DNA of 59,944 nt from a virus, in IMG/VR virus record IMGVR_UViG_3300043661_000028, positions 1-59,944 of that record, one strand, 5' to 3'. Shown here in pieces: positions 7,681 to 33,657 of this stretch. The translations under genes were made by a program, and so were the position numbers. Under the pieces are notes generated by a model. It worked only from the letters and a program-made list of their open reading frames with translations, was not told the DNA's origin and ran no database searches. The first letter of the stretch is position 1; each line of letters begins with the position of its first letter.

Positions 7681-8667
7681 GTGACGACCACCCTAGACGA
7701 GCCTGCCCCGGAGAGCGTCGACCCGCGCACGGCCGGCATCCAGGTCGAGGTCAAGCTCCGCGACTGGAACCTCAGCTACGAGTACGTGGCCGAGTTCCCG
7801 GCCGAGAAGATCCGCTCCGTCGACTGGACGCAGGTCCGCTCCGCCACTGACCATGCCGGTGCCGACAAGCAGACGCTGGGCGAGTTCCGCATGCAGATGA
7901 TGCAGGGCGCAGTCTTCCCGCCGGTCGTGATCATGGAGCCTGACGTCCTGGTCGACGGCAACCACCGCGTGGCCGCCGCGAAGAGCCTGCGCCGCAAGGC
8001 CTTCCCCGCGTTCGTGGTGAAGTTCAGCAGCGTGGACCTGGCCAAGAGCTTCGCGGCGGCCATGAACCAGCTGAACGGGCGCCGGCTCACCACGCAGGAG
8101 GCATTCCAGGCGGCGGTGACCATGATGGCGCGGGGGATGGCCGATGAGGCGATCGCCCGCGAGGTCGGGCGTGCGCCGTCCAGCGTGCGGGACATGCGCC
8201 GCCAGAACGAGTTCGCCGAGCGCAGCTCGGCCATGCCCGAGCTGCGCAAGCTGATGGAGAAAGCGCCGATACCGGTGCGGGCACAGCAGAAACTGGCCTC
8301 GATCAGCCATGATCCGGCGTTCGCCGAGGCCGTGAAGGTGGTGGCCGAGACCCGCGCGCCGATGCAGACGGTTAACGAGATAGTGGAGGCGGCGGTGAAG
8401 GCGCGGACGGACACGGATGCGATAGTGGCCGTGCGGGCCAAGCGCGCCGAGCTGGCACCTGCCGGTCCGCCGCCGCACCGGGTGACGGTGCCGCAGTCGG
8501 TGAGGAACTGCCGGATGTGGCTCGGCGGCATCCTGAAGTTCCGCGCGAACGCCACCATCCTGCTCGACACGCAATCCGAGGAGACGCGGGTCAAGGCGGC
8601 CGAGCAGTGGAGGCAGGTTCAGGGCCTGGCCGCCGAGATGATCGACCTGTACGGCAAGCGTGACTGA
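7681..8667 (+). CDS. ParB/sulfiredoxin-fold nuclease-like protein with HTH
   Basis: GTG 7681 follows GAAAGGAAA. The 328-residue protein contains LGEFRMQMMQGAVFPPVVIM then DVLVDGNHRVAAAKSLRRK at ~75-105. The DGNHRVAAA box is the hallmark of the ParB N-terminal (ParB/Srx) fold. A helix-turn-helix follows at ~145-175 (MADEAIAREVGRAPSSVRDM). The C-terminal third is helical. It could act in partition, as a DNA-binding regulator or as a nuclease; no ParA ATPase is adjacent, so classic plasmid partition is not shown. It overlaps the next gene by 8 bp. Confidence 0.75.
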   Translation: MTTTLDEPAPESVDPRTAGIQVEVKLRDWNLSYEYVAEFPAEKIRSVDWTQVRSATDHAGADKQTLGEFRMQMMQGAVFPPVVIMEPDVLVDGNHRVAAAKSLRRKAFPAFVVKFSSVDLAKSFAAAMNQLNGRRLTTQEAFQAAVTMMARGMADEAIAREVGRAPSSVRDMRRQNEFAERSSAMPELRKLMEKAPIPVRAQQKLASISHDPAFAEAVKVVAETRAPMQTVNEIVEAAVKARTDTDAIVAVRAKRAELAPAGPPPHRVTVPQSVRNCRMWLGGILKFRANATILLDTQSEETRVKAAEQWRQVQGLAAEMIDLYGKRD

Positions 8668-9199
8668 GAATTCCGTCCGTGGCTCCGGCCGCTCCCGCGC
8701 CGGAGCCACGGACACCACCATGTTGATCTGGAAGGTGATCGCCGCCAGCCCCGGCATCACGTATGGCGAGATCCGGGAACGCGTCGAGCACGACATCCCG
8801 GCCGGCTATGCCTGCCGACGCTTCGAGCGCTGGTCCTATCGGCCCAAAAAGTACATTGGGACAGATCGGTCTCTCCCAATGTATCTACGGAAAGCACGGG
8901 GCTACATCCTTGCGATGGCTCTCTCCGACATGAAGCGCAACCGCAACATCACATCTGACGGCAGCGGCAAAGGGCAGCGGTATACGGTTGCGCGAGAACT
9001 GCATTACATGGGCAACGCCGACGCGATCGACGAGACCGGCACCAAGGCCGCCGAGCACATGGCTGTCGCCGAGGCCCTCCGCAAGGTGGAGCGCATGCTC
9101 GCCACGCCCACCGCAGTGCAGAAATACGGCCGGAAGAACTGCGAGGCTATCGAGCGCCTGGTCAGGACGCTCCGGGCGCGGGGCAGCGCGGATACCTAG
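8660..9199 (+). CDS. hypothetical protein coupled to ParB-like gene (179 aa)
   Basis: GTG 8660 lies inside the end of the ParB-like gene (8-bp overlap), so the two are translationally coupled. The product has a winged-helix-like region (LIWKVIAASPGITYGEIRER) and a long basic central part (YLRKARGYILAMALSDMKRN). A helical tail (VAEALRKVERMLATPTAVQK) follows. Probably a DNA-binding partner of the ParB-like protein (inference). The stop converges with that of the DUF5753-like gene. Confidence 0.6.
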   Translation: MTENSVRGSGRSRAGATDTTMLIWKVIAASPGITYGEIRERVEHDIPAGYACRRFERWSYRPKKYIGTDRSLPMYLRKARGYILAMALSDMKRNRNITSDGSGKGQRYTVARELHYMGNADAIDETGTKAAEHMAVAEALRKVERMLATPTAVQKYGRKNCEAIERLVRTLRARGSADT

Positions 9200-10017
9200 A
9201 GGCTCGCCGCCGCAGCCGCGATCAGCCGTCGTGCTTCAGCGCCGGTAACCGCCTCGGCTAGCAGTGCCTCGGTGATCCGGTCGTAGATGGCCGACTCCGC
9301 GCCGATGAACCTGTCCTCGGACGTGAATGTCTCCACGACGGTCACGTCATCGGCGGTGAGGTAGCCGACCATCGGGGCCACGGCCAGCTCGACGCCTGGC
9401 GGGATGATCGCCAGCGTCACGTTGCCGAGCCCGGAGAGGGTCATCAGCCGGTCGAGCTGGCCGGCCATCACCTGGGGCGGGCAGAGCAGGTAGCGGAGCG
9501 CGGCTTCGCAGATGATGAACTCGAACGTCTTGCCCGCGTCGTAGAGCACTTCCTGCCGGCGCATCCGCCCGGTGACCGTCTTCTCAACGTCGGACTCCGC
9601 GAAGCCGTGCACCCGGACGGCCTCAAGGGCCCGGTACCGGGCGTAGTCGGCGGTTTGCAGCAGGCCGGGGATGAGCATGACCTCGAAGTTGCGGATGCGC
9701 TCAGCTTCCCGGACGAGCTTGTCGAACTCGGCCTGGAGCGCGGCGTGTCCGCGGCGCAGCTTGTGCCGCCACTGCTCGTGGACGGCCTGGGCCTCGGCCA
9801 GCAGGTCGAGCAGGGCGGGGATTTCCTCCGGGTGGCCGCATGCCTGCGCCCACCCGGTGACGTCATCCTCGCTGGGCATCTGCTGGCCGCGTTCCAGCTT
9901 CGGCACGCGGGACCGGGATTTCCACCCGATCTGTGCGGCCAGCTCTTCACCAGTCAGCCCGGCGTCCTTGCGCAAGCGCTTGAGGCGCTCCGCGAGGGCA
10001 CCGGGCTGGTTGAGCAT
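9196..10017 (-). CDS. HTH regulator with DUF5753 domain
   Basis: ATG 10017-10015 was chosen because the HTH domain begins at once: ALAERLKRLRKDAGLTGEEL then AAQIGWKSRSRVPKLERGQQ (residues ~6-50). The rest (~95-270) matches the actinobacterial DUF5753 domain by its landmarks IRNFEVMLIPGLLQTADYAR, then RQEVL and a hydrophobic MVGYLTADDVTVVET region. Such proteins usually sit beside a small partner, and here the DUF6879-like gene and a 67-aa protein lie upstream in the same operon. It probably controls the divergent promoter region at 10880-10932. Confidence 0.85.
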   Translation of the reverse strand: MLNQPGALAERLKRLRKDAGLTGEELAAQIGWKSRSRVPKLERGQQMPSEDDVTGWAQACGHPEEIPALLDLLAEAQAVHEQWRHKLRRGHAALQAEFDKLVREAERIRNFEVMLIPGLLQTADYARYRALEAVRVHGFAESDVEKTVTGRMRRQEVLYDAGKTFEFIICEAALRYLLCPPQVMAGQLDRLMTLSGLGNVTLAIIPPGVELAVAPMVGYLTADDVTVVETFTSEDRFIGAESAIYDRITEALLAEAVTGAEARRLIAAAAASL

Positions 10018-10048
10018 CTCTCCGGTCGGTCGCAAGGCAGTTCCTCGG

Positions 10049-10585
10049 TCAGGCGGCGGCGTGCTCTTCCGCCGGGGTGGCGATACGGACTGCCAGGTCC
10101 CGCCATTCGATGTACCGGGCCACGGTGCCCGGGTCGTCGCTGATCGTTCTCTTCTCCATCGCACCGTCGTCGGTGAACTGCATGTGGATTACCCGCTCGT
10201 CATCGAGCAGCCACCAGTCGTTGCCGGTCCATGCGGGCAGCCCGGCCAGCCGGGCCTCGCGCCGCGAGACGTAGCCGATGCGCTCGCCGGCCCGCGAGTG
10301 CCACGGGGCCGCCCACATCTCCCACCGCTGGTAGTCGGACGGCGGGTCATCGAGCACGCGGACGCGGCTGACCATCTTGCCCTCGGCCGTCAGCCGGCCG
10401 ATCTCCTCGAGCCACGGCCGCCACCAGTCCAGCTCCGTGGGCGGCACCGGCGACCCCGCGAGGAAGCGGTCGAAGTCGGCCTGCTCGTAGCCGAGCGCGT
10501 AGGTGCTGCGCGTCTCGAGCCTGAAGGCCGACCGCCTGAACGACCGGAGCAACTCGTCCGACCACTCCAGGTCTTCGTCAGCCAT
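10049..10585 (-). CDS. DUF6879 family protein
   Basis: 178 residues; ATG 10585-10583 overlaps the upstream gene by 8 bp. FRRSAFRLETRSTYALGYEQ, then WLEEIGRLTAEGKMVSRVRV and PSDYQRWEMW, with IGYVSRREA and WWLLDDERVIHMQF, are the signatures I associate with actinobacterial DUF6879 proteins. These pair with DUF5753-type HTH regulators. By context it is the partner, possibly antagonist, of the HTH protein. Biochemical role unknown. Confidence 0.8.
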   Translation of the reverse strand: MADEDLEWSDELLRSFRRSAFRLETRSTYALGYEQADFDRFLAGSPVPPTELDWWRPWLEEIGRLTAEGKMVSRVRVLDDPPSDYQRWEMWAAPWHSRAGERIGYVSRREARLAGLPAWTGNDWWLLDDERVIHMQFTDDGAMEKRTISDDPGTVARYIEWRDLAVRIATPAEEHAAA

Positions 10586-10781
10586 CAAGGCCCCGGATGC
10601 GGTCGATGACGTTGGCCGGGACGAACACGGCATCCTCGTCGCCGCCGAGGTCGCGCAGATGCGCCCTCGTCTCGGCGTCGAGCGCCTTGCCCTGGACGAC
10701 GTAGCCGCCCGGTGCCTCGTACATGGCGGGGCAGTTGCCGACGTTCGACGCGTCGTCTTTCCACATGAACTTGAGCTGCAT
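10578..10781 (-). CDS. small conserved partner of DUF6879/HTH module (67 aa)
   Basis: ATG 10781-10779, preceded by GAAAGGACC on its strand. MQLKFMWKDDASNVGNCPAM then YEAPGGYVVQGKALDAETRA is typical of short proteins encoded just before DUF6879 genes in Streptomyces. It is first in a three-gene operon and its mRNA leader can fold into a perfect three-way junction (10799-10873). A longer TTG start would run into that structure and is disfavoured. Confidence 0.8.
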   Translation of the reverse strand: MQLKFMWKDDASNVGNCPAMYEAPGGYVVQGKALDAETRAHLRDLGGDEDAVFVPANVIDRIRGLDG

Positions 10782-10798
10782 CGCTGGTCCTTTCTCGC

Positions 10799-10873
10799 GC
10801 CAGGTTCCACCTTGATTGTTCTCCAAGGTGCCCCGGCCGTCCAGCGTAGTCCGGCCGGGGCATGGAACCTGGC
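10799..10873 (-). promoter_or_regulatory. perfect three-way-junction leader of the DUF6879/HTH operon
   Basis: Three helices meet without an unpaired base. GCCAGGTTCCA (10799-10809) pairs with TGGAACCTGGC (10863-10873), 11 bp. CCTTG (10810-10814) pairs with CAAGG (10824-10828), 5 bp. TGCCCCGGCCG (10829-10839) pairs with CGGCCGGGGCA (10852-10862), 11 bp. The loops are 9 and 12 nt. The leftward promoter predicts a transcript starting at 10873-10874, the first base of the outer helix, and the ribosome-binding site follows the last base by a few nucleotides. It may be a structured 5' leader or a protein/DNA cruciform site. Confidence 0.8.
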
Positions 10874-10879
10874 CCTCTG

Positions 10880-10908
10880 ATTCTAGAACATCAGCGTTCA
10901 GGCTTGAA
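10880..10908 (-). promoter_or_regulatory. predicted promoter of leftward DUF6879/HTH operon
   Basis: On the leftward strand TAGAAT (10885-10880) is a near-consensus -10, with a weak TTCAAG (10908-10903) 17 bp upstream. The expected start is 10873-10874. The -35 overlaps the palindrome at 10907-10922 and the -35 of the divergent promoter. Confidence 0.55.
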
Positions 10909-10932
10909 TGTTCGCGAACATTGACTTACGGT
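10904..10932 (+). promoter_or_regulatory. leaderless promoter with 16-bp operator palindrome
   Basis: TTGAAT (10904-10909) and TACGGT (10927-10932) are spaced by 17 bp. The expected start is about 10939, the GTG of the BldC-like gene, so the mRNA should be leaderless. AATGTTCGCGAACATT (10907-10922) is a perfect palindrome filling the spacer. TTCTAGAA (10881-10888) is a second, smaller palindrome nearby. Confidence 0.65.
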
Positions 10933-10938
10933 GAAGAC

Positions 10939-11148
10939 GTGGAACCGGAAACTGCTGAAATCGCGGAAGCCCCCGTGCTGCTCATGCCCGGCGTGGCCGC
11001 CCGCAGGGTCGGGGTTGTCGCTCGCACCCTGGCGAACTGGCACCGGGCCGGCAAGATCACCGCAGTCGTCACGTTCGGCGGCCAGCGCCGCTACCCGGAA
11101 CCCGAGATCACCGCGCTCGCCACCAGCCAGACCGGGGCGGCGGCCTGA
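10939..11148 (+). CDS. BldC-like MerR-family DNA-binding protein / excisionase-like
   Basis: 69 residues from GTG 10939. GVAARRVGVVARTLANWHRA then GKITAVVTFGGQRRYPEPEI reproduces the helix-turn-helix plus wing of BldC-type and excisionase-type proteins (TLxNWxxAGKI...TxGGxRRYxxxE). It lies directly at the predicted transcription start. It faces the DUF5753 operon across shared operators, so it is a likely early regulator or recombination directionality factor. No integrase is in the window. Confidence 0.85.
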   Translation: MEPETAEIAEAPVLLMPGVAARRVGVVARTLANWHRAGKITAVVTFGGQRRYPEPEITALATSQTGAAA

Positions 11149-11149
11149 G

Positions 11150-11383
11150 GTGCCTCTCCCGATCGCCCAGGTCCGCGTGCTCCGCCTTATCGCGGACACC
11201 GGCCCCGCCACCGCCCGGCAGGTGACCAGGGGCCTGCGCCTGGAACGCGTCATCACGCAGAACGCGCTGAGGCTGCTCACCGATAAAGGGCTGGTGACCG
11301 CGGATCACTTCACGGTCCCCGTGTCCTACAAGATCACCAGCGCCGGGCACCTCGCCCTGGCCGCCGGGGGCGGCGAATCCTGA
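11150..11383 (+). CDS. winged-helix regulator (77 aa)
   Basis: GTG 11150 starts one base after the stop of the BldC-like gene, so the pair is an operon. PIAQVRVLRLIADTGPATAR then QVTRGLRLERVITQNALRLL and TDKGLVTADHFTVPVSYKIT give a classic MarR/PadR-like winged helix with a wing. Likely a small DNA-binding regulator. Confidence 0.7.
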   Translation: MPLPIAQVRVLRLIADTGPATARQVTRGLRLERVITQNALRLLTDKGLVTADHFTVPVSYKITSAGHLALAAGGGES

Positions 11384-11404
11384 TGCCTTTTCGCACACAA
11401 GACG

Positions 11405-11435
11405 AGAGCGGTCCCGCCCGACACGGGACCGCCCT
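11405..11435 (+). terminator. GC-rich hairpin after the BldC-like operon
   Basis: GCGGTCCCG (11408-11416) pairs with CGGGACCGC (11424-11432), a 9-bp perfect stem with a 7-nt loop; GAG/CTC outside extend it past one mismatch. There is no T tract, as is common for terminators in high-GC actinobacteria. It lies 22 bp after the winged-helix gene. Confidence 0.6.
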
Positions 11436-11479
11436 CAACACCCGTCTCACCCGGTTTGCACGCCCAGGAAGGCCCGCAG

Positions 11480-11620
11480 ATGCCCAACGTAACACAGCCC
11501 CCCGACAGCAGTACGGACCGCCCGCTGCGCCCGCCGAACGTAACCCCGGAGTGGGTCGCGGAGCTGGAGTTCTGGGCGGCCGAGCGGGGCCTGCCGCCCG
11601 AGCCGTGGCCGCTGCCGTAA
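11480..11620 (+). CDS. very small hypothetical protein (46 aa)
   Basis: ATG 11480 follows AGGAAGG (11466-11472). MPNVTQPPDSSTDRPLRPPN then VTPEWVAELEFWAAERGLPP. The Pro-rich start and the single acidic, aromatic helix suggest a peptide that binds another protein. Gene-like because of the ribosome-binding site and its place before the WhiB gene. Function unknown. Confidence 0.5.
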   Translation: MPNVTQPPDSSTDRPLRPPNVTPEWVAELEFWAAERGLPPEPWPLP

Positions 11621-11696
11621 CCCGCACCTGGCGGCGGCGGTCTTCCCCGCCGCCGCCGCCCAGCGTCCGGGTTTGCACGGAAAGGAAGGTGACCCG

Positions 11697-11951
11697 GTGA
11701 GCCGTCACCAGGGATGGCGCGCGCAGGCCGCGTGCGCCAGCACCGACCCCGGGATCTTCTTCCCCCGGACCGGCGAGTCGGTCCAGCCGGCCAAGGCCAT
11801 CTGCGCCCGCTGCCCGGTCACCGCGCAGTGCCTCGCGCACGCGGTCAGCGTCCCGGAGCAGCACGGTGTATGGGGCGGCCTGGCCGAGCGGGAACGGCAC
11901 GGCCTCGGGCCCAACAAGCAGCCATCGCAGTTCCGAAAGGTAGCCGCCTAG
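11697..11951 (+). CDS. WhiB-family iron-sulfur transcriptional regulator
   Basis: 84 residues from GTG 11697, preceded by AAAGGAAGG. Four cysteines (13, 36, 39, 45) in the pattern C-x22-CxxC-x5-C can hold the [4Fe-4S] cluster. The GVWGG turn at 57-61 and a basic end are diagnostic of WhiB proteins, which act with the host primary sigma factor. Actinophages often carry such a gene to change host transcription or prevent superinfection; which applies here is not known. Confidence 0.93.
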   Translation: MSRHQGWRAQAACASTDPGIFFPRTGESVQPAKAICARCPVTAQCLAHAVSVPEQHGVWGGLAERERHGLGPNKQPSQFRKVAA

Positions 11952-11953
11952 CC

Positions 11954-12232
11954 ATGCGCGCGTTCTTCCGCCTGATCCTCAACCTCGCCCTCCTGGTGTC
12001 CGCAGCAGCCGCGATCGGCTGGCTCACGACCCAGGAGGCCTATCACCACGCATCCCGCGACGCCCGGATCGTGATGGTGGCTGCTGTCGCCGCCGGCTTC
12101 TTCATCGTCGCCTGCATCGTCCTTCACGCGGTCCCGTCGAAGGCGCAGCTGGCCAGGCGCAGTAAGGGCAAGGGCGGCAGGCTGTCCTACCCGTACGCGG
12201 CCCCGGCGAAGCGCGGCAGGCGGGCGTCGTGA
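11954..12232 (+). CDS. two-TM membrane protein (92 aa)
   Basis: ATG 11954, two bases after the WhiB stop. Hydrophobic segments at ~4-24 (FFRLILNLALLVSAAAAIGW) and ~40-62 (IVMVAAVAAGFFIVACIVLH), then a strongly basic tail (KAQLARRSKGKGGR, KRGRRAS). It overlaps the next gene by GTGA. This block of membrane and secreted proteins resembles accessory genes of actinobacterial conjugative elements. Confidence 0.65.
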   Translation: MRAFFRLILNLALLVSAAAAIGWLTTQEAYHHASRDARIVMVAAVAAGFFIVACIVLHAVPSKAQLARRSKGKGGRLSYPYAAPAKRGRRAS

Positions 12233-12999
12233 TCGCCGCGGCCCTGCTCGCCGTCTCCCTGCTCGCGCCTGCCAGCGTGGGGACCGGCATCGGCGGCCCC
12301 GTGTGCCTGCGGGTCACCGCCCAGCCCGGCCGCTCCTACCCGCTCGCCGGGCTCAGCGTCTCCGATACCGGCAGCGACGGCGAATCGATCAGCCTGCGGG
12401 TCGTCCCGGACCCCGTGATGCCCGCCGCGCGCCAGGCCGCGCGCCTGCGCCAGGTGCCGCCCTCGTGGATCACCTTCGGGCCCTCGTCAGTGAATGCAGG
12501 GCCCGGGCAGGCGGTTCCCGTGACGGTCACCCTGAATGTCCCTCCTGGTGCCGCGCCCGGCCCGCGCGAGAGCTGGGTGCAGGACGGCACGGTCTCCGCC
12601 CCGGCATCAGGGCCGGGCGGCCATGCCGTGCTCGGGGCGTCCGCCACGACCACGCTCGTCTTCACGGTCGGCCCGTCGGCAACCCCGCCGCCGTGTGACG
12701 CCCTGATCCTGGCCCAGTCGACCGGGAAGTTCCCGCCGTGGCCGACCGCCGCGTTCGCGACGTCGGGATGGGCGCAGGTGTTCGCGAGGGACGGCGCCGC
12801 GCCGTCCGGCCGCCCAGACACGGCTGTACGTCCGGGCACCGCGCCGGTCGCCACGTTCACGCCGGTCGCGGCGCCCTCCGTTTCTCTCGCCAAGGCCACC
12901 ATCCCGACGAAGCTCCCGGTGGACTGGAAAGGCTGGGCAATCGTGATCGGCCTCATCGTCGCCGCCGTATTCGCGGCCGGCAGAAAGCTGGGGGGCTGA
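12229..12999 (+). CDS. secreted/membrane-anchored Ig-like protein
   Basis: 256 residues from GTG 12229. Residues 1-17 are a signal peptide (MIAAALLAVSLLAPASV). The middle (~25-155) is beta-rich with PGQAVPVTVTLNVPPGAAPG and a sandwich-like strand pattern. A Pro/Ala-rich stretch leads to a C-terminal membrane helix (WAIVIGLIVAAVFAAGRKL). Probably exposed outside the cell and tethered; such proteins occur near tra genes in actinomycete elements. No enzymatic motif. Confidence 0.65.
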   Translation: MIAAALLAVSLLAPASVGTGIGGPVCLRVTAQPGRSYPLAGLSVSDTGSDGESISLRVVPDPVMPAARQAARLRQVPPSWITFGPSSVNAGPGQAVPVTVTLNVPPGAAPGPRESWVQDGTVSAPASGPGGHAVLGASATTTLVFTVGPSATPPPCDALILAQSTGKFPPWPTAAFATSGWAQVFARDGAAPSGRPDTAVRPGTAPVATFTPVAAPSVSLAKATIPTKLPVDWKGWAIVIGLIVAAVFAAGRKLGG

Positions 13000-13002
13000 C
13001 CG

Positions 13003-13287
13003 ATGGCCGGACGATTCAAGGCCGGCGGCCGCACCTACATCGACACCCCTGCCGGGCACCTTCAGGCTACGAGGGACAAGGTGGCCGACACGGCACGGAG
13101 CCGAGGTCACGACATGATGCACTGGAGCAAGGTTGCCAGCGCCGCACCGCCGTACTTTCGTGCCACCTGCGGGAAGTGCGGCGCCGGGGTGAAGGTCGTC
13201 ACCGGCCGGGCCCCGGCGAACCTGCCCGGCTATCCGAGCCTGCTCAGGTTCCGCAAGGTCACCTGGTGCCCGGGGCGGCGACGCTGA
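13003..13287 (+). CDS. zinc-ribbon protein, paralogue of 13889-14176
   Basis: 94 residues beginning MAGRFKAGGRTYIDTPAGHL and holding CGKCGAGVKVV...WC, a probable zinc ribbon. The gene at 13889 starts MAGRFKVNGRTYPDTPLGKA with the same layout, so the two are paralogues flanking the M23-like gene. Role unknown. Its stop overlaps the next start (TGATG). Confidence 0.65.
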   Translation: MAGRFKAGGRTYIDTPAGHLQATRDKVADTARSRGHDMMHWSKVASAAPPYFRATCGKCGAGVKVVTGRAPANLPGYPSLLRFRKVTWCPGRRR

Positions 13288-13889
13288 TGGCCGCCCGCAC
13301 TGGCCCGGTAGTCGCCATAGCCATCCTCGCCGCCCTGCTGGCCGCATCGCGGGCGGGCGCGGTCACGCACCTCGGCGCCGCCCCGGCCCGGGACACGGCA
13401 GCCGCCCCGGCTGGTTACGTCAACCCGCTCGCCGGGGAGCGATGGGCGCTGGCCCGCACGGATCAGGGCGTCGACTACAGGCCGCGCGTACCGGAGCCGG
13501 TCCGCGCGATCGGCGCCGGGACCGTCGTCTTCTCCAGTACCGCGTACTGCCTGCCGCACGGCTGGCCGGGATGCGCTGAGATCGCCTACAAGCTCACCGG
13601 CGGCCCGGCCGCGGGGAACGTCGTCTATGTCGCCGAGCACCTGACGGGCCTGCTGCGGCAGGGGTCGTTCAAGGCTGGTGCGGTGATCGCCACCGCGCTG
13701 CCGGGCTACCCGTGGACGGAATGGGGGTGGGCGCGGTGCGACGGGACCGGCCCGGCGGTGCGGTACAACGGCGCCCCGGACGGCACGCCGATGCCCGGCG
13801 GCCTCGCGTTCGCCCGGTTCATGCGCGAGCTAGGCGCGGGCACGGCCCAGGATCCGGGTCCGGGGCCCGACGTCGTGAGGAGCTGCTGA
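13287..13889 (+). CDS. M23-like (LytM-fold) secreted protein, probably inactive
   Basis: ATG 13287 overlaps the preceding stop. Residues 1-25 form a signal/anchor segment (VVAIAILAALLAASRAGAV). YVNPLAGERWALARTDQGVD, then RPRVPEPVRAIGAGTVVFSS, is the start of the LytM/M23 fold, in which the first zinc ligand normally lies in HxGxD. Here the sequence is DQGVDY, so the His is missing and the protein is probably a non-catalytic peptidoglycan-binding form, as in several actinobacterial element proteins. Confidence 0.6.
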   Translation: MAARTGPVVAIAILAALLAASRAGAVTHLGAAPARDTAAAPAGYVNPLAGERWALARTDQGVDYRPRVPEPVRAIGAGTVVFSSTAYCLPHGWPGCAEIAYKLTGGPAAGNVVYVAEHLTGLLRQGSFKAGAVIATALPGYPWTEWGWARCDGTGPAVRYNGAPDGTPMPGGLAFARFMRELGAGTAQDPGPGPDVVRSC

Positions 13890-14176
13890 TGGCCGGGCGG
13901 TTCAAGGTCAATGGCCGCACCTACCCCGATACCCCGCTCGGGAAGGCTCGCGCCCGCAAGGACAAGCAGAACGCGCGCCTGGCCGACCACGGGCACCGGA
14001 TGACATGGCGGAAGCTTCCTGCTGACCCGGTCTGGCGGGCTGCATTTCGCGGGACCTGCCGACGATGCCGCGGCGAGCTGGATTGCAGTGAATACGGCCC
14101 CCAGTGGCGGTCGGCGAGCAGTCCGACCCTCCTCAAGTTCATGGGTGTCAACATCGTCAAACGGTGCGGTTCGTGA
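13889..14176 (+). CDS. zinc-ribbon protein, paralogue of 13003-13287
   Basis: 95 residues, ATG 13889 overlapping the upstream stop. N-terminal MAGRFKVNGRTYPDTPLGKA matches the paralogue; CRRCRGELDC...RC gives the metal site. Arg-rich, with a possible nucleic-acid role (inference). Stop and next start overlap (TGATG at 14174-14178). Confidence 0.65.
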   Translation: MAGRFKVNGRTYPDTPLGKARARKDKQNARLADHGHRMTWRKLPADPVWRAAFRGTCRRCRGELDCSEYGPQWRSASSPTLLKFMGVNIVKRCGS

Positions 14177-14751
14177 TGCCCGCCTACACCTACCGCCTGC
14201 CCCGCAAGTACCGCTGCCGGCCGCGCGGCAAGAACAGCTACGCGGGACCGGTCGTCGGCGCGGTCATCTTCGCTGCCCTGGCCAGCGCCGGGACCAAGGC
14301 CGCCGTGCACCACGGTCACGCCGGGCACACCCGCGCCGCCGTCACCGCCGTGATCATCCCGGCCGGAAGCAACCTCGGCACCCCCGCCGGCGTCGCCAGC
14401 GCCCTGCTCGCCGCGGACAGCCTGCCGCGCACATCCTGCAACCTCAATGCGGTCACCGCATGGGAGCGCGCTGAAGGCGGCGGGTTCGGGAATCAGGCGA
14501 GTTACGACCCGCTGAACGTCAACCCCGGACCCGGCGCGGGCTGGCCAGGACATCCCGCTATCGGGGCGTGGGCGTTCCCTGACGCCGCGACCGGCCTGCG
14601 ATACACGGTCTCGACACTCAACAACGGCTACTACGGCGGCATCCTGTCCGCCCTGCGCGCCGGCAACTCCGCCCAGGCCGTCTGCAACGCGATCATGGCC
14701 AGCCCGTGGGCGGCCAACCGCTACGGCGGCACCCTGACCGCTACCTGCTGA
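14176..14751 (+). CDS. lysozyme-like/transglycosylase-like cell-wall protein
   Basis: 191 residues. The N-terminus is basic, followed by a membrane segment (~20-38, SYAGPVVGAVIFAALASAG). The C-terminal domain (~75-191) has NLNAVTAWERAEGGGFGNQA then SYDPLNVNPG and GLRYTVSTLNNGYYGGILSA, typical of lysozyme-like domains in actinobacterial phages and conjugative elements. The Glu of WERAEGG is the likely catalytic residue. It would open peptidoglycan locally for transfer or entry. Confidence 0.65.
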   Translation: MPAYTYRLPRKYRCRPRGKNSYAGPVVGAVIFAALASAGTKAAVHHGHAGHTRAAVTAVIIPAGSNLGTPAGVASALLAADSLPRTSCNLNAVTAWERAEGGGFGNQASYDPLNVNPGPGAGWPGHPAIGAWAFPDAATGLRYTVSTLNNGYYGGILSALRAGNSAQAVCNAIMASPWAANRYGGTLTATC

Positions 14752-14763
14752 AAGGTCGCCCTG

Positions 14764-15090
14764 ATGCAACTCACGTCCGCCGACCTGCACCTTGCCGGCG
14801 TCGTCATCGCCGCGCTCACCGTGGAGGAGGTCATCCGGGAGGCCCGGCATCCGATGTACGGCGAGAGCAAGCCCGACTTGCTGGGTTCCGCATGTTACGG
14901 CCTCGTCCTGGCAGTGGTCGCCCTGGCCGTCTGCCGCGTCCTGCGCGGGGCTGAGGTCATCGCCATAGCCCTGGCCGTCCCGCTGGCTCCCGGCTGGGCC
15001 CTGCACAGGCTGAGCCAGCACCGGCGCCGCGTCATCAGCAAGGGCATCGACACCGTGATTGCCCAGAACCGGTACCAGGAAAGGCGATAA
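14764..15090 (+). CDS. membrane protein (108 aa)
   Basis: Three hydrophobic stretches (LAGVVIAALTVEEV, SACYGLVLAVVALAVCRVL, EVIAIALAVPLAPGWALHRL) and a basic end. It lies in the same rightward series as the wall-active proteins and the translocase. Unknown function. Confidence 0.65.
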   Translation: MQLTSADLHLAGVVIAALTVEEVIREARHPMYGESKPDLLGSACYGLVLAVVALAVCRVLRGAEVIAIALAVPLAPGWALHRLSQHRRRVISKGIDTVIAQNRYQERR

Positions 15091-15096
15091 ACGATC

Positions 15097-16023
15097 ATGA
15101 TCCTCGCTGCCCTCGGCTGGATAGCCGCCATCGGCCTGCTGGCCGCCTGCCTGTCTTCGGCCCGGCATGGCCTGCATGACAAGAAGTACGGCCCGTGGAC
15201 CGGCGCCGGGCTGTACGCCTGCGCCGCCGTAGTCCTGCTCGCCGCCGTCGGCGCGCTCAGCCCCGCCGCCGCCGCCGTGCTGGCGTTCCTGACTCTCATC
15301 ACCGCCGCCGGGCTCGCCGTTACCGAAGCCCTGAACCCGGCGGACGGCCAGGAAGTCGCGGCCGGCTGGAGGCTAGCCGCGGCCAGAGGCGCGTACGGCC
15401 ATGCGGGCGCCGGCTTCGGCTACCTCGCCCGCGATACCCGCGGCCTGGCCGGCTGGCTGAAGGGCCGTCGGCAGGAGCGCGCAGGCAAGCTCCCGGACCC
15501 CGGCCCCGCGGCATCCGCGGCCTGGCCTGCATCACCCGTCACCACCTTCAAGCCCGACCCGAACGGAGCAAGCACCATGCCGCCAAGGAACGCCAGCGGG
15601 AACGGCACCAGGCCGCCAGCGAACGGCACCGTCCAGCAGCCCGCCATCCGGGCCAGGCGCCTGGCCGCGCAAGCCGGATCAGTGCCGGTGCCCGCGGGAT
15701 GGGCGGCTGTCGTCGCCGGGACCGCGGACTTCGAGGCGGGAAGCAACGTCGAGCTCGCCCAGTGGATGACCGAGCAGGTTCTCGGCCTGGCCGCCTGGGC
15801 CGAGGCCATTGTCGAGCAGCACGAGGCCAACCGCGCTAAGGGCGTCGACGCGGCGGCTATCTCCATGCTGCATGACGTCGCGGACGCGGGGGTGGCCTCC
15901 GCCGGGGCGATGGCCGGGGCGGTCAGCCAGTTCTGCAACTACTTCGAGCTCCCCGACGCCTTCGTCGACGAAGGCAAAACGCTGGCGCACAGCGGCGACT
16001 GGCATCAGGGCAGCCCAGGATAA
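15097..16023 (+). CDS. membrane protein of transfer region (308 aa)
   Basis: Three N-terminal membrane helices (~1-20, 31-50, 54-78) are followed by a soluble, Pro/Ala-rich linker (~120-185) and a helical C-terminal domain (NVELAQWMTEQVLGLAAWAE, then HDVADAGVASAGAMAGAVSQ). The topology and position directly before the FtsK-like gene suggest a partner of the translocase at the membrane (inference). Confidence 0.65.
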   Translation: MILAALGWIAAIGLLAACLSSARHGLHDKKYGPWTGAGLYACAAVVLLAAVGALSPAAAAVLAFLTLITAAGLAVTEALNPADGQEVAAGWRLAAARGAYGHAGAGFGYLARDTRGLAGWLKGRRQERAGKLPDPGPAASAAWPASPVTTFKPDPNGASTMPPRNASGNGTRPPANGTVQQPAIRARRLAAQAGSVPVPAGWAAVVAGTADFEAGSNVELAQWMTEQVLGLAAWAEAIVEQHEANRAKGVDAAAISMLHDVADAGVASAGAMAGAVSQFCNYFELPDAFVDEGKTLAHSGDWHQGSPG

Positions 16024-16052
16024 GCAACCCGACGTCACGAAGGAACAGTTCA

Positions 16053-18392
16053 ATGCCGCTCGCCGACCTGGATACCTTCCCCCGGCCGTGCCCGATCCCC
16101 GGTCATCCCGAGGATCCGGAAGACACGGCCCGGCCGAGGGTGCCCGAGTCGGCGTGGCGGCGGTTCCGTGCCTGGCACCTAAAGGCCCCAGCGGAACGAC
16201 TCCCGCTCACGGGCATCGCGGTGACATGGCCAGCCGCGTGGCTGATGCACCTGATCCACGTCCGCCTCCTGGACATTGCGGTGGCCGCGGCTGCTGTCAC
16301 CGCCCTGGCGTGGCTGGTGTGGGCGTGGCACACGTGGAGGTACGACCGGGCCCTGGCCGCCCGCCGTCCCGCCCGGCAGCGTTTCCTGCCCAGCGAGGCG
16401 GCAGGTGTCGCGGCGGCCTCGGGCGGCTGGGTCACCGCCGCCGCCCACTGGGGTCCCCTCGCGCCGCCCGGCTGCTGGCCGACCGTCATCTACCTGGCCG
16501 GGGGGCTCTCCGGGTACCGGTGGCTGCGCCGCCATCCTGCCGTACAGGACGCGCGGGACCAGCGGGACGCAGCCGCCGAGCTGGTCCGCCGGAAAACCTG
16601 GTGGCACCTGATCGCCCACCTGATCGGCCTGGGCGGCTTCGACCTCGTGAACGTCATCCCGACGCTGCTCGGTGAGCAGCTGCTGCTGACCAGCGCCCCG
16701 GGGAGCCGCAGCGGCCGGGCATCCCAGATCGCCGGCCATCCGGAGGGAGTGGCGGAGAACCTGCTGCATCACCTCGGCATGGACTACGGCAATATCGATA
16801 TCACGACCCCGAAGCCGGGGTGGCTGCTGGTCGACATCCGCTATGAGGACCCGTCGATAGAAGGGCCGGTCAGGCACCCGATGATCGACCCCGGCTCCCG
16901 GTTCGCTGACTTGTTCCCCGCCGTGGCGTCGGTGCGCGACCCGGTGCCGCTGCTGGTCGTCCCGGAGACAGGCGAGGTCGCCAGCGTCGCGCTGTGGGAT
17001 GAGAACGGCGGGAAGGTCATCGGCGTGTACGCCGCGGGAGGCCAGGGCAAAACTACCGTGCTCAACGACCTCCGCGAGCGGATCACCGCGATGGATGACG
17101 CGGTGCTGCTGCAGGCGAACGGCGCGAAGGTCGGCGACGAGCTCGCGTGGGCGCCGCTGGCCGCCGGGACCGCGGCCGGGTCGGTACTGGCCGATGAGCC
17201 GGCCGGGACATGCGACAAGATCCTGGCCCTGCTGGAGTACGGGCAGCAGCTGATCACCGACCGGTCCGCCACGCACGTGATCACCGGCGACTCGGTGTTC
17301 CGGCCGACGAGGAAAGACCCGGCCGTGGTCATCGAGCTGGATGAGGTCGATGAGATCCTGAAGATCCCCGGGGCGCAGGCGGCGATCGAGTTCCTGGCCA
17401 GCAAGCGGCGCTCCTCCGCCGTCACGCTGGTCCTGGCCACCCAGCGGGCAATCCAGCGGTGGACCGGCGGCGGCGGCGTTATCGCGAACCTGACTGATGT
17501 CCTGATCGGGAACATGACCCGCGCGTCGGAATCCCGTCACGCGACCGGCGCCGATCATGAGATGCCGGATATCAGCGAGTACTCCAAGGGGCAGCCCGGC
17601 TATTTCCAGCACTGGGACCCGATGGCCAAGCGGGTCGTGGCCCGGGGCCGGGCGTTCAACATCGGGACGATCGGCGAGCAGCAGCGGAACATCATCTGGC
17701 GGCGTGACCCGGCCGCCCGGCCCGCGCTCCCGGGTCCGGAGCTGGACCTGGACGGCTACGGCCAGCCCGAACCTGACGACGACAGTCGACTACCCACGGC
17801 GGATGACCCGGACAGCCTGCGAGGCCGTCTCGCTCGCGCGGTCGGCCTGCTGCCTGGCGGTAACCAGGGACGACACGCCAAGGCCGCCGGCGCAGCCCCT
17901 CCCCCGGCCGGTCCCGCCCCGGCCGCTGCGCCCGGGCGGGCGGTGCGGATGATCCCCGGCGTCCCCGCTCCGGTGGCCGCCACGATGCTCAGGCTCCTCG
18001 CAGGAGAGGGCACTACGAGGGCGGCTATCGAGCAGGCCACCAGAGTGGGGAAGACGAAGGCGTACGAGTACCTGAACGCCGCCCGTAAGGCCGGCGTCGC
18101 GAAGCAAGTCGGGCAGGGCCCGGCCGCCCGCTGGCTACTAGCCGGTAACCCCGCAGGGGATGAGGTCCCCGGACCGGCCCCCGAGCCTGTGACCAGGCCT
18201 TACGGCACGATCGAGATGCTTGCCGATGCGGTCGCCGCCGGGCTGGTCGAGTGTAACGACGATACCCGGGAGATGCTCCTGAAGGCCCGGGAGCTGGCCG
18301 GGCAGGGGGCACCCCGCCAGCGAGGTCACCTGACCCTGCTGCCCACCGGGGATGGTGACCCGGCGGACACGGGAGCGGGTGACAGGCAGTGA
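16053..18392 (+). CDS. FtsK/SpoIIIE-type (TraB-like) DNA translocase
   Basis: 779 residues. Membrane helices lie in ~50-90 and ~115-150. The ATPase core has a Walker A near 326-336 (YAAGGQGKTTVL) and a Walker B near 423 (AVVIELDEVDEI), followed by the sensor-like TLVLATQRAIQRW. A Pro/Ala linker leads to a C-terminal winged helix (~635-695, RMIPGVPAPVAATMLRLLAG then TRAAIEQATRVGKTKAYEYL). Actinomycete TraB proteins use the same plan, membrane anchor, hexameric motor and winged helix, to move double-stranded DNA between hyphae after binding short repeats. It is unusual in an element with a full virion module. Confidence 0.88.
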   Translation: MPLADLDTFPRPCPIPGHPEDPEDTARPRVPESAWRRFRAWHLKAPAERLPLTGIAVTWPAAWLMHLIHVRLLDIAVAAAAVTALAWLVWAWHTWRYDRALAARRPARQRFLPSEAAGVAAASGGWVTAAAHWGPLAPPGCWPTVIYLAGGLSGYRWLRRHPAVQDARDQRDAAAELVRRKTWWHLIAHLIGLGGFDLVNVIPTLLGEQLLLTSAPGSRSGRASQIAGHPEGVAENLLHHLGMDYGNIDITTPKPGWLLVDIRYEDPSIEGPVRHPMIDPGSRFADLFPAVASVRDPVPLLVVPETGEVASVALWDENGGKVIGVYAAGGQGKTTVLNDLRERITAMDDAVLLQANGAKVGDELAWAPLAAGTAAGSVLADEPAGTCDKILALLEYGQQLITDRSATHVITGDSVFRPTRKDPAVVIELDEVDEILKIPGAQAAIEFLASKRRSSAVTLVLATQRAIQRWTGGGGVIANLTDVLIGNMTRASESRHATGADHEMPDISEYSKGQPGYFQHWDPMAKRVVARGRAFNIGTIGEQQRNIIWRRDPAARPALPGPELDLDGYGQPEPDDDSRLPTADDPDSLRGRLARAVGLLPGGNQGRHAKAAGAAPPPAGPAPAAAPGRAVRMIPGVPAPVAATMLRLLAGEGTTRAAIEQATRVGKTKAYEYLNAARKAGVAKQVGQGPAARWLLAGNPAGDEVPGPAPEPVTRPYGTIEMLADAVAAGLVECNDDTREMLLKARELAGQGAPRQRGHLTLLPTGDGDPADTGAGDRQ

Positions 18393-18544
18393 GTAAAGAG
18401 GGGACGGGTGTGCGAGCCTGCCACGTACCTACCGCAGATCGTTCGTGCACCATCACTGGCCAGCGAACGAACGACTCCGCGAACGACTCCGCGAAAGATC
18501 TCACGAACGGTTTTCCGGTGACGCCCGGTAGTGGAAAGAGGTGA
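18389..18544 (+). CDS. small ORF overlapping translocase end (51 aa)
   Basis: GTG 18389 overlaps the translocase stop (GTGA) and the frame ends at 18544, overlapping the next start (GTGA). It reads through the CGAAC repeat cluster, giving a low-complexity RTNDSANDSAKDLTN segment. It may only carry ribosomes across a cis-acting DNA site and have no protein role. Confidence 0.35.
   Translation: MSKEGTGVRACHVPTADRSCTITGQRTNDSANDSAKDLTNGFPVTPGSGKR
18441..18510. repeat. CGAAC repeat cluster after the translocase, candidate transfer locus
   Basis: GAACGACTCCGC is repeated exactly in tandem (18469-18480, 18481-18492). CGAAC occurs at 18464, 18468, 18480 and 18504, and GTTCG in the opposite sense at 18441-18445. 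TraB proteins bind arrays of short direct repeats near their own gene. This cluster has the right place and form, but binding is inferred. Confidence 0.5.
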
Positions 18545-19269
18545 GCGGGATGGGTGCAGAGCAGGCCCGGGAGCTGTACATCCAGGCTGAGGTGCTCGCC
18601 GAGATCAGCGACCTGGCCGAGGTGGCCGGTGAAGTTCTCGCCGGCGCCGAGCAGGCCGGAGCGGACCGCGGCGCCGTCACCGGCCTGATTACCGCGATCC
18701 GGGCCCTCGACCCGGGCATGGCCGTCCGCTATGACGCGGGCAGCGCCTCTGACCGGCGCGTTAACACCGGCTACCGGTCAGAGTGGGAGTTCCTCGAAGG
18801 TGTCAGCGATGCTGAGGATCAGCTCGAGCAGCGCCGTCGTGCCGCCGCCGCCCTGCTTGCCGCCGTCGTGACGCTGCAGGACTCCGCGCTGAAAGCCCTC
18901 GGCGCCGCCGAGGCTGACCTGACTGCCGCGCATCGCCAGCTGACCGCCGCGATCGCCTGGCCGGTCAATGAGCCGTGCACCGGCTGCCACGGCGCGAAGC
19001 AGGCCGACATAGACGAGGCCGAGGCCGCGGTAGCCGGCGCGGACGACCGGGCCCGGGATGCCCGGCAGTCCGTCGCCGTGTGCGAGACCGCGGCTGAGGT
19101 CCTGGACGATCTCGCCGCCGCCGTTAAAGCGGTGCTCACCTGCGTCCGCAGGGTCCCGCAGGACCTCGGCGAGGTGTACGAGCTGGTGCACACGTTCATC
19201 CGCAACGGCGGCAGGCTCCCGGACTACGCCCGGTGGGTTGAAGGGACAGCGCGCCACGGGGTGGCGTGA
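18541..19269 (+). CDS. coiled-coil protein (242 aa)
   Basis: GTG 18541 or ATG 18550. Nearly all helix with heptad-like spacing (AEDQLEQRRRAAAALLAAVV, then LKALGAAEADLTAAHRQLTA), with CTGCHGAKQADI in the middle giving a CxxCH site. It follows the translocase and may be a structural partner in transfer. No family recognised. Confidence 0.6.
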   Translation: MSGMGAEQARELYIQAEVLAEISDLAEVAGEVLAGAEQAGADRGAVTGLITAIRALDPGMAVRYDAGSASDRRVNTGYRSEWEFLEGVSDAEDQLEQRRRAAAALLAAVVTLQDSALKALGAAEADLTAAHRQLTAAIAWPVNEPCTGCHGAKQADIDEAEAAVAGADDRARDARQSVAVCETAAEVLDDLAAAVKAVLTCVRRVPQDLGEVYELVHTFIRNGGRLPDYARWVEGTARHGVA

Positions 19270-19306
19270 CTCCCTCAAGTCACTCATGAGAAGAAAGGTG
19301 CTCCTG

Positions 19307-20218
19307 ATGAGCGCTGCAGCACAGGTGAACGGCCGCCAGCATCCCGCGAGCCGGCCGACGCAGGTCACCATGGAGCCGATCGTCATTCCCGGCCGCACTG
19401 GCAACGAGTTCCGTGCCGCGGCCGGCCTGGCATCCTGGTCGCCCGCAGTCCTGGTGTCGGAACTAGCGGCACAGGCGCCGTTGCAGGAAGCCGGCACCGA
19501 GCCCGGGCCGGCTACGGCAGGCGGCCGGCTCGACGGCGACACGGCCATCCGCGCCCTGGCCGCTGTCGTGGTCCTGGCCGTCGCCGCGTTCGCCGCCATC
19601 GTAAGTTACAGTCACATCTTCGATCTCGGCGTTCACCACGGCCAGAACGGCACTGCTGCCAGGCTGCTGCCGCTGTCGGTCGACGGGCTGATCGCGTCGG
19701 CGTCGCTTGTCATGCTGCACGCCGCCAGGCGCAAACTTGACGTGCCGTGGCTGGCGCGGGCGATGCTGGCGCTGGGCGTCGGCGCGACTGTCGCCGCTAA
19801 CGTCGGGTACGGCCTGCCGTTCGGGTGGCTGTCCGCTGTCGTGTCGGCGTGGCCGGCGGTGGCGTTCGTCGGGAGCGTGGAGATGGCGGTCAGGTTTGTC
19901 CGCGACGCCCGCCACGACAGCGGCAGCGGACAGGACAAGATGCCGGCCGTCCGCGCCTGCGACACCCGCCAGGCCGTGCCGCTGACCGGCAGGAATGACG
20001 CGCCACGCCAGGACAGGACAGCGGACAGGCCGCAGGGCGGTCAGGGCACGGCGCCGGTGTCGCGCAGCCGCGCCGCCGGCGCGTCCGGGCGTGCCGGGGC
20101 TGCTGCCATCCTGAAGGACAAGCCTGGCCTGCCAGACGCTGAGGTGGCGAAGCTGGCCAGGGTGTCGGTGCGCACGGTCCAGCGCGCCAGGAACGACAGC
20201 GCAGGGAGCACGGCATGA
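19307..20218 (+). CDS. DUF2637 membrane protein (Spd/spread-associated type)
   Basis: ATG 19307 is preceded by AAGAAAGG. Residues ~85-200 are four membrane helices of the DUF2637 type (ALAAVVVLAVAAFAAIVSYS, then LLPLSVDGLIASASLVML and GATVAANVGYGLPFGWLSAV). This family is common on Streptomyces plasmids and integrative elements, where it is linked with spreading between hyphae. The C-terminus (~265-300) ends in an HTH-like PDAEVAKLARVSVRTVQRAR, which could bind DNA at the membrane. Confidence 0.8.
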   Translation: MSAAAQVNGRQHPASRPTQVTMEPIVIPGRTGNEFRAAAGLASWSPAVLVSELAAQAPLQEAGTEPGPATAGGRLDGDTAIRALAAVVVLAVAAFAAIVSYSHIFDLGVHHGQNGTAARLLPLSVDGLIASASLVMLHAARRKLDVPWLARAMLALGVGATVAANVGYGLPFGWLSAVVSAWPAVAFVGSVEMAVRFVRDARHDSGSGQDKMPAVRACDTRQAVPLTGRNDAPRQDRTADRPQGGQGTAPVSRSRAAGASGRAGAAAILKDKPGLPDAEVAKLARVSVRTVQRARNDSAGSTA

Positions 20219-30624: not shown

Positions 30625-30896
30625 GGCCTGGAGAGGATGAGTCGTTCAGGATGAATGGCGGGGCGGAATACAGCCTGATCCTGGCTTTCGACTCTGATGA
30701 TGCCGAATTCACGCGCGGATTCGAGGCTGGCCAACTATGGGAGCGGCTGGAGCGTGACGGCTTCGCCGGACAGCTGATCCATGCCGAGAACGCCGAGATG
30801 GTCATGCGCATGGCCGCGGCCAAGGGCCTGGCGTTCCGCGCGGAGGACGTCGGCGACGGCTGGATGCAGGTCGCTGTTGGGCGTGAGCCTGAGTGA
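30621..30896 (+). CDS. hypothetical protein (91 aa)
   Basis: GTG 30621 overlaps the upstream stop; ATG 30651 is an alternative. EYSLILAFDSDDAEFTRGFE then AGQLWERLERDGFAGQLIHA and a beta end. The F..GFE.G.LW..L motif is frequent in small actinophage proteins. It overlaps the portal start (GTGA). Function unknown. Confidence 0.55.
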   Translation: MRPGEDESFRMNGGAEYSLILAFDSDDAEFTRGFEAGQLWERLERDGFAGQLIHAENAEMVMRMAAAKGLAFRAEDVGDGWMQVAVGREPE

Positions 30897-32335
30897 GGCT
30901 GATTGACCGGCTGATCCGCCGGGACGGCTACTGGGAAGGCCAGGCCAGCGGCGCCGCGGTCCTGACCACCTCCTACGGGTCCCCGGACCGGGAGGCGGTC
31001 CTGCCGCAGCTGACCGCGTGGGCGCAGCAGGCCAACGCGTCCGCGTCACCGGTGTTCTCCGCCATCCTGGTCCGGATGATGCTGCTGGCCGAGGCGCAGT
31101 TCCAGCTGCAGGCCAAGGACGACAAGCACCTGTACGGGAACACCAGCCTGGCGGTGCTGGAGCACCCGTGGGGCCCGGACACGGTGTCGGGTGAGCTGAT
31201 CGCCCGCTGCGAGCAGGACGCCAGCGTGGCCGGGAACTCCTACACGTGGGCGCCCCCCGGCGAGGACGTCCTGGTCCGGCTCCGCCCCGACTGGACCACG
31301 ATCGTGTCCGAGCGGGTGGCGGTGGACAGCGGGGATCCCGCTCACCCGGGCTGGTACCGCAAGAAAATCGGCTACTGGCATGAGCCGCCCAGGTCGGTGA
31401 CCGACCAGGGCAGCGGGTTCCTCGCCCCCGCGGAAGAAGTGGCCCACTGGGCGCCCATCACCGACCCGAACGCCACGTTCCGGGGCATGTCCTGGCTGAC
31501 GCCGGTGATGCGGGACGTGCAGGGCGACGACGGGATGGCCCAGTACAAGATCCGGTACCTGACCAACAACGCCACGCCGAACATCGTCATCAAGTACGCG
31601 CAGAAGCTGCAGCCGGCCACGATCGATAGCATCCGGGACCGGGTCAACGCCCGGTACGGCGGCCCGGACAACGCCGGGAAGACCCTGATCCTGGATCAGG
31701 GCGCGGACCTGGTGCTGGCCGGGAACAGCCTGTTGCAGATGGACTTCGCGAACGTCACGCAGGCGGGCATCGAGCGGATCCTGGCCGCGTCGGGGGTGCC
31801 GCCGCTGCTGATCGGCCTGGAATCCATCAAGGGCGCCGGCAAGTCGTATCAGGAGGTCATCCGCCGGTTCGGGGACCTGACGCTGCGGCCGTTGTGGCGG
31901 TCGCTGTGCGGCGCGCTGGAACCCCTCGTCCCCGGCGTCCCGGCCGGAAGCCGCTTGTGGGTCGACACCAGCGACATCGCCGCGCTGCAGGACGGCGAGC
32001 AGGTCCGCGCGCAGGTCACCCTGATCCGCGCCCAGGCGCTGCTGGCACTGGAGCAGGCCGGTTATGACCGGATGAGCGCGGTCAAGGCGATCGAGGCCGG
32101 TGACATGGGGCAGCTGGAGGAGGCCGAGGAGCCGCCGCCGCCGCAGAACCTGCCGGTGCAACATTTGCTCGGGCAGCCCGGCCAGCCAGGCGCGACCGCG
32201 GACCCGCTGCCGCCGACCATGCCCAGGCTGCCGGTCGGGTCGACGTCGCCGGGTGACGGCGGGAACAACACGCGGCCGACCCCGCGGCCGTCGTCGGCGC
32301 GCCGGGCGCTCGAGGGCGCGAACGGCCGTGGATGA
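30893..32335 (+). CDS. portal protein (HK97 family)
   Basis: 480 residues from GTG 30893. VFSAILVRMMLLAEAQFQLQ then GNSYTWAPPGEDVLVRLRPD (clip/stem region) and AQYKIRYLTNNATPNIVIKY are typical of siphovirus portal proteins. QAGIERILAASGVPPLLIGL matches the wing/crown region. It would form the dodecameric DNA entry ring at one capsid vertex. The C-terminus is Pro-rich (~420-480). It lies in normal order after the terminase and overlaps the protease by 8 bp. Confidence 0.93.
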   Translation: MRLIDRLIRRDGYWEGQASGAAVLTTSYGSPDREAVLPQLTAWAQQANASASPVFSAILVRMMLLAEAQFQLQAKDDKHLYGNTSLAVLEHPWGPDTVSGELIARCEQDASVAGNSYTWAPPGEDVLVRLRPDWTTIVSERVAVDSGDPAHPGWYRKKIGYWHEPPRSVTDQGSGFLAPAEEVAHWAPITDPNATFRGMSWLTPVMRDVQGDDGMAQYKIRYLTNNATPNIVIKYAQKLQPATIDSIRDRVNARYGGPDNAGKTLILDQGADLVLAGNSLLQMDFANVTQAGIERILAASGVPPLLIGLESIKGAGKSYQEVIRRFGDLTLRPLWRSLCGALEPLVPGVPAGSRLWVDTSDIAALQDGEQVRAQVTLIRAQALLALEQAGYDRMSAVKAIEAGDMGQLEEAEEPPPPQNLPVQHLLGQPGQPGATADPLPPTMPRLPVGSTSPGDGGNNTRPTPRPSSARRALEGANGRG

Positions 32336-33635: not shown

Positions 33636-33657
33636 CCAGACCGGAAGGACGTGGCGC

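Follow-up and report, generated by a model that had tools for sequence, protein, structure and literature searches.

A conserved structured leader predicted at the 5' end of a DUF6879/DUF5753 operon in a viral record

The operon and its predicted leader

The viral record IMGVR_UViG_3300043661_000028 is the window of this study, that is, the whole stretch of 59,944 bases that was analysed. It carries phage portal and capsid genes alongside genes for WhiB, a ParB-like protein and DUF2637, and judging from this gene content it is probably a temperate phage or phage-plasmid of an actinobacterium, or a hybrid element. The portal and capsid genes lie at 30893-35040, and 7681-20218 is the other region cited for the mixture of phage and plasmid genes.

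On the minus strand, from 10781 to 9196, an operon encodes a 67-aa protein, a DUF6879 protein and an HTH_31 + DUF5753 regulator, in that order. Neither a DUF397 domain nor an RNA-binding domain was recognised in the 67-aa protein, and a fold comparison against the PDB gave no significant match. For the DUF6879 protein (10049-10585) a phospholipase D/nuclease-like fold is predicted at high confidence (pLDDT 92.8). PDB matches to this predicted fold include H. pylori NucT, PLD3, Zucchini and TrmB regulators, and the PLD HKD motif is not apparent in the invariant columns. DUF6879 was not named in the literature searched. At 8675-8713 a perfect inverted repeat, 15 bp per arm with 9 bases between the arms (GTCCGTGGCTCCGGC...GCCGGAGCCACGGAC), lies near the start of an ORF at 8660-9199. 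The structure that concerns us here sits between the predicted promoter and the 67-aa gene, at 10873-10799 on the minus strand, and the features of the locus are as follows.

10940-11149, plus strand: small MerR/HTH_17 protein, excisionase-like, divergent from the operon
10907-10922, no strand assigned: O1, palindrome AATGTTCGCGAACATT at about -40, likely HTH operator
10880-10885, minus strand: -10-like hexamer TAGAAT; the first base of the structure lies 7 nt downstream
10864-10873, minus strand: 5' box GCCAGGTTCC, nearly invariant, at the predicted +1; with 10863 it makes up the 5' strand of P1
10863-10873, minus strand: P1, 11 bp, 5' strand GCCAGGTTCCA, pairing with 10809-10799
10829-10862, minus strand: P2 hairpin with 11-bp arms TGCCCCGGCCG / CGGCCGGGGCA (10862-10852 with 10839-10829), loop 10851-10840
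10841-10846, minus strand: P2 loop bases CGCTGG, complementary to CCAGCG upstream of the start codon
10810-10828, minus strand: third arm P3, 5 bp, CCTTG / CAAGG (10828-10824 with 10814-10810), loop GAGAACAAT
10817-10821, minus strand: O2, GAACA in the third-arm loop, +52 in the leader, likely downstream operator half-site
10799-10809, minus strand: P1, 3' strand TGGAACCTGGC
10788-10793, minus strand: Shine-Dalgarno-like sequence AAAGGA
10782-10787, minus strand: CCAGCG, partner of the P2 loop, between the Shine-Dalgarno and the ATG
10578-10781, minus strand: 67-aa protein, first gene of the operon, without a Pfam or NCBIfam family
10049-10585, minus strand: DUF6879 protein (Pfam E 3.6e-48), predicted PLD-like fold
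9196-10017, minus strand: HTH_31 + DUF5753 (Scr1-type) regulator

The TAGAAT hexamer at 10885-10880 places the predicted transcription start near 10873, and in homologs a TA-rich hexamer precedes GCCAGG at similar spacing. A preliminary description of this DNA had reported the hexamer together with three perfect arms of 11, 11 and 5 bp, and both hold to the base: 27 of 27 pairs are Watson-Crick and the junction has no unpaired bases. It had also called such a structure very unlikely by chance. The leader has a minimum free energy of -53 kcal/mol, whereas shuffled sequences average -27.2 (z -7.55) and 0 of 200 are as low. The third arm taken alone is improbable as a chance event: both ends are closed with at least 5 bp in 0.08% of shuffles, and any 5-bp hairpin at all arises in 1.7%. 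About 8 other sites in the window have perfect inverted repeats of at least 11 bp with arms less than 60 nt apart, so that a single such repeat is not rare in this DNA. The telling point is rather that two nested repeats occur at a promoter and are kept in relatives.

Related leaders, their covariation and the operator half-sites

Relatives of the leader were gathered, from viral and genomic loci, by a search with the 67-aa protein. At least 25 leaders, the window included, have GCCAGG or a near variant, spaced similarly from a -10-like hexamer and followed by a hairpin; they are found in actinobacterial viruses and genomes, before homologous operons. The shared layout is GCCAGGT(TCC) at the predicted start, then the large hairpin P2, usually with an enclosing P1, and wherever the flanks of a leader were examined a DUF6879 gene and a DUF5753-type HTH gene lie downstream. 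Subfamily A comprises five leaders, those of the window, L010, L016, L018 and L099 (the same locus as L348). Subfamily B includes L008, L009, L014, L020-L023, L346, L057, L353-L357 and L360, and L367, L368, L369 and L373 are more distant. What the more distant leaders share is limited to the 5' box, P2 and the operator. The box is absent from about 16 other homologs (for example, L011-L013, L358, L361 and L363-L366), among them some close homologs that are without the leader (L011-L013, L358, L361, L363-L365). Distant homologs (L029-L034) have neither the box nor a long hairpin upstream of the small gene; several of them carry GAGCAAT-like repeats just 5' of the Shine-Dalgarno that are probably operator sites of the same HTH family.

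Model R1, run over 299 genomes, found only the known locus in G005 and one weak match (L352), near which the operon genes were not found. Most matches from pattern scans of viral contigs were due to chance, the hairpin plus loop motif being present only in L016, L018 and L099, and in plasmid and phage BLAST searches the plasmid HTH gene alone matched and relatives of the leader were not found. Given these R1 results and the lack of a second copy of the leader elsewhere in the window record, we rejected the idea of a repeat or mobile element copied to other places.

The first 15 leaders examined are all more stable than their shuffles (z -2.8 to -8.0). The preliminary description had suggested covariation across homologous operons as a check on the structure, and we carried this out on an alignment of the four subfamily A relatives with the window left out. 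This alignment has 94.4% of its cells paired. P2 is paired at 12 of 12 positions (100%), and at 7 of the 12 both sides have changed. The covariation score of 0.43, compared to 0.17 in shuffled alignments, was reached by 0 of 500 shuffles, and the signal collapses when the pairing partner is shifted by 1-3 columns. A covariance model built from these four relatives recovers the window, with 49.1 bits (E 9.6e-9) for the minus strand and only 21.5 bits for the plus strand.

P1 is less uniformly supported. Its pairing exceeds that of shuffles in every one of the five subfamily A leaders (p 0.003-0.04), and L021, L022 and L373 show the same; it is weak in L023, L356 and L357, and several subfamily B leaders have the enclosing stem further in or lack it. 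In L367 the two strands of P1 are altered yet matched (CCAGATC/GATCTGG), although compensatory changes for P1 are weakly supported compared to those of P2. Conservation of the 5' strand GCCAGGTTCC goes further than base pairing would require, and this strand therefore probably has an additional role. Two general marks of a cis-regulatory leader RNA were both found, namely a position in the 5' UTR of the same gene family (by predicted promoters) and compensatory changes. The leader structure is not a product of chance and is, by these comparisons, a well-supported conserved element.

The third arm behaves differently. The 5-bp helix is not present in the four closest leaders, which instead share GAACAAT at this place, and among close relatives it is specific to the window. 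Only L368 and L369 have a comparable third arm, unlike that of the window in sequence; it is large (about 11 bp, GCCCCCGGTGC/GCATCGGGGGC) and a three-way junction is predicted for both. Since the third helix is not kept across homologs, we rejected the three-way junction as a conserved unit. Thus, of the overall reading in the preliminary description, a real structured leader with compensatory changes at the predicted 5' end of the DUF6879/HTH mRNA stands, and the perfect three-way junction as the conserved object does not.

What is kept at this position is a short sequence. Each of the five subfamily A leaders carries GAACA twice, once at about -40 or -31 and once near +50, and GCAAT/ATTGC replaces it at both places in 15 of 15 subfamily B leaders, against a background per stretch of 7.5% for GAACA and 3.2% for GCAAT/ATTGC. 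Because the half-sites in the promoter and in the leader switch together between subfamilies, the GAACA-type half-site is probably a DNA operator read by the diverging HTH proteins.

Proposed loop pairing at the ribosome-binding site and alternative explanations

Two features of the locus were missed in the preliminary description: the 67-aa gene between the leader and DUF6879, and a complementarity between the P2 loop and the ribosome-binding site. The subfamily A loop GCUGGAC matches GUCCAGC before the start codon over 7 bp, and in the window CGCUGG matches CCAGCG beside the ribosome-binding site over 6 bp. The match is exact over 6-7 nt in all five subfamily A leaders. Each has a p value of 0.0025-0.02 when the ribosome-binding region is shuffled, the five leaders being related and not independent. 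The core CUGG/CCAG is invariant, and there is little covariation between loop and ribosome-binding site within the subfamily. L346, from subfamily B, has a separate 7-nt loop match to its own Shine-Dalgarno (CACCUUU/AAAGGUG, p 0.039); given that the match is 4 nt or less in 10 of 11 tested subfamily B leaders and relatives, this single case is near chance. Since distant leaders have only the 5' box, P2 and the operator in common, loop pairing may be specific to the subfamily of the window.

The best explanation, which we put forward tentatively, is a conserved structured 5' leader RNA that could shut translation by pairing between loop and ribosome-binding site and that is overlaid by an operator of the HTH protein. 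In this explanation the operon of the 67-aa protein, DUF6879 and DUF5753-HTH would be autoregulated. Transcription would start at 10873, and the leader RNA would fold while emerging, its 5' end closed off by P1. A helix of 6-7 bp would then form between the P2 loop, folded back, and the sequence next to the Shine-Dalgarno. One difficulty is the length of P1 and P2 when stacked end to end, which would oblige the RNA to bend at the junction between them for the loop to dock. The docked loop could keep translation of the first gene low or switchable, and the rest of the operon would be held in the same state by coupling to that gene. Candidates for releasing the loop are proteins encoded in the operon, passing ribosomes or a factor of the host. 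Separately, the HTH protein would repress transcription through O1 (about -40) and O2 (about +50). The match between loop and ribosome-binding site is both the basis of this proposed mechanism and its weak point.

If the match were incidental, the leader could be a passive 5' stabiliser, whose paired 5' end and long hairpin shield a low-level repressor mRNA from decay that depends on the 5' end. The structure does begin at the predicted first nucleotide, and P2 is its most general shared feature, present even where the loop does not match the ribosome-binding site. We nevertheless consider a stabiliser unlikely, as it leaves unexplained the conserved loop GGCUGGAC and GUCCAGC spacer of subfamily A as well as the invariant GCCAGGTTCC. 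GCCAGGUUCC together with P2 could instead be the binding site of an operon product, either the 67-aa protein or DUF6879, or of a host factor, in an autogenous control. The box GCCAGGTTCC stays constant across the switch of HTH operator and is thus unlikely to be a site for the HTH protein, and the predicted PLD-like fold of DUF6879 includes proteins that act on nucleic acids. Against such a protein-binding RNA, which we also judge unlikely, the 67-aa protein has no recognised domain of the kind required and the box is absent beside some close homologs of its gene.

A third possibility is that the palindromes act in the DNA, as cruciform or looping operators, with the RNA fold a by-product. The operator half-sites at -40 and +50 do flank the palindromes. 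However, the arms of P2 vary freely with pairing kept, unlike a sequence-specific palindromic operator; G-U pairs are present in P1 and P2; among 26 leaders, which are not independent of one another, 18 have the better fold on the sense strand (Wilcoxon p 0.018); and the covariance model is strand-specific. These properties make a DNA cruciform less likely, and we give the DNA-level explanation little credence. Finally, chance palindromes in GC-rich DNA are scarcely credible, because homologous leaders with compensatory changes refute them even though further perfect inverted repeats of 11-15 bp exist in the window.

Returning to the regulatory leader, it is possible, if somewhat doubtful, that these sequences represent an undescribed family of 5'-terminal leader RNAs of actinobacterial viruses and related elements, in which docking of the loop on the ribosome-binding site sets the level of a repressor operon. 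RNA folding and operator binding would then both govern maintenance of the element, and the match between loop and ribosome-binding site hints at how its repressor genes could be turned on or off. It would also add an RNA family absent from Rfam, with an operator-like site nested inside a structured leader and tracking the HTH subtype in its sequence. To our knowledge, little is understood of how actinobacterial phages and phage-plasmids exert lysogeny-like control, and a conserved RNA before a DUF6879/DUF5753 operon would provide a testable handle on it.

Comparison with known systems

The closest described regulators are the XRE-DUF397 (Scr1/Scr2-type) pairs of Streptomyces, where an XRE/HTH regulator lies beside a small protein of unassigned function (PMC10364602, PMC6262351). 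The HTH regulator gene of the window is likewise accompanied by a small-protein gene; unlike in those pairs, the small protein is not recognised as DUF397 and its gene precedes the HTH gene, with DUF6879 between. A word search of PMC10364602 gave no mention of a leader or UTR.

Two familiar identities for an element in this position were rejected. An intrinsic terminator or attenuator does not fit, as a T run after a GC stem was not found. Nor does a leader peptide, given that the ATG in the window leader (10863) reads out of frame into the downstream genes and that L016 is among the leaders without an ATG there. The preliminary description knew of no described element of this form, and the Rfam searches agree: no family overlaps the window leader even at E 5, and no family of Rfam 15 reaches its gathering score in ten relatives. 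The leader resembles the RNA motifs that entered Rfam from comparative genomics in being a short covarying structure upstream of one gene family, and differs from them in that none overlaps it or scores above gathering in the relatives.

Leaders in which a loop or pseudoknot occludes the Shine-Dalgarno include those of S15 rpsO and T4 gene 32 and the preQ1 and SAM-II riboswitches. The leader described here, with which they have no sequence or Rfam relation and which is not known to bind a ligand, is like them in that its mRNA begins with a cis RNA structure and that a long-range pairing is predicted beside the ribosome-binding site. It is unlike them in that the loop for this pairing is supplied by a long GC-rich hairpin, placed at the first nucleotides of the transcript before a repressor operon.
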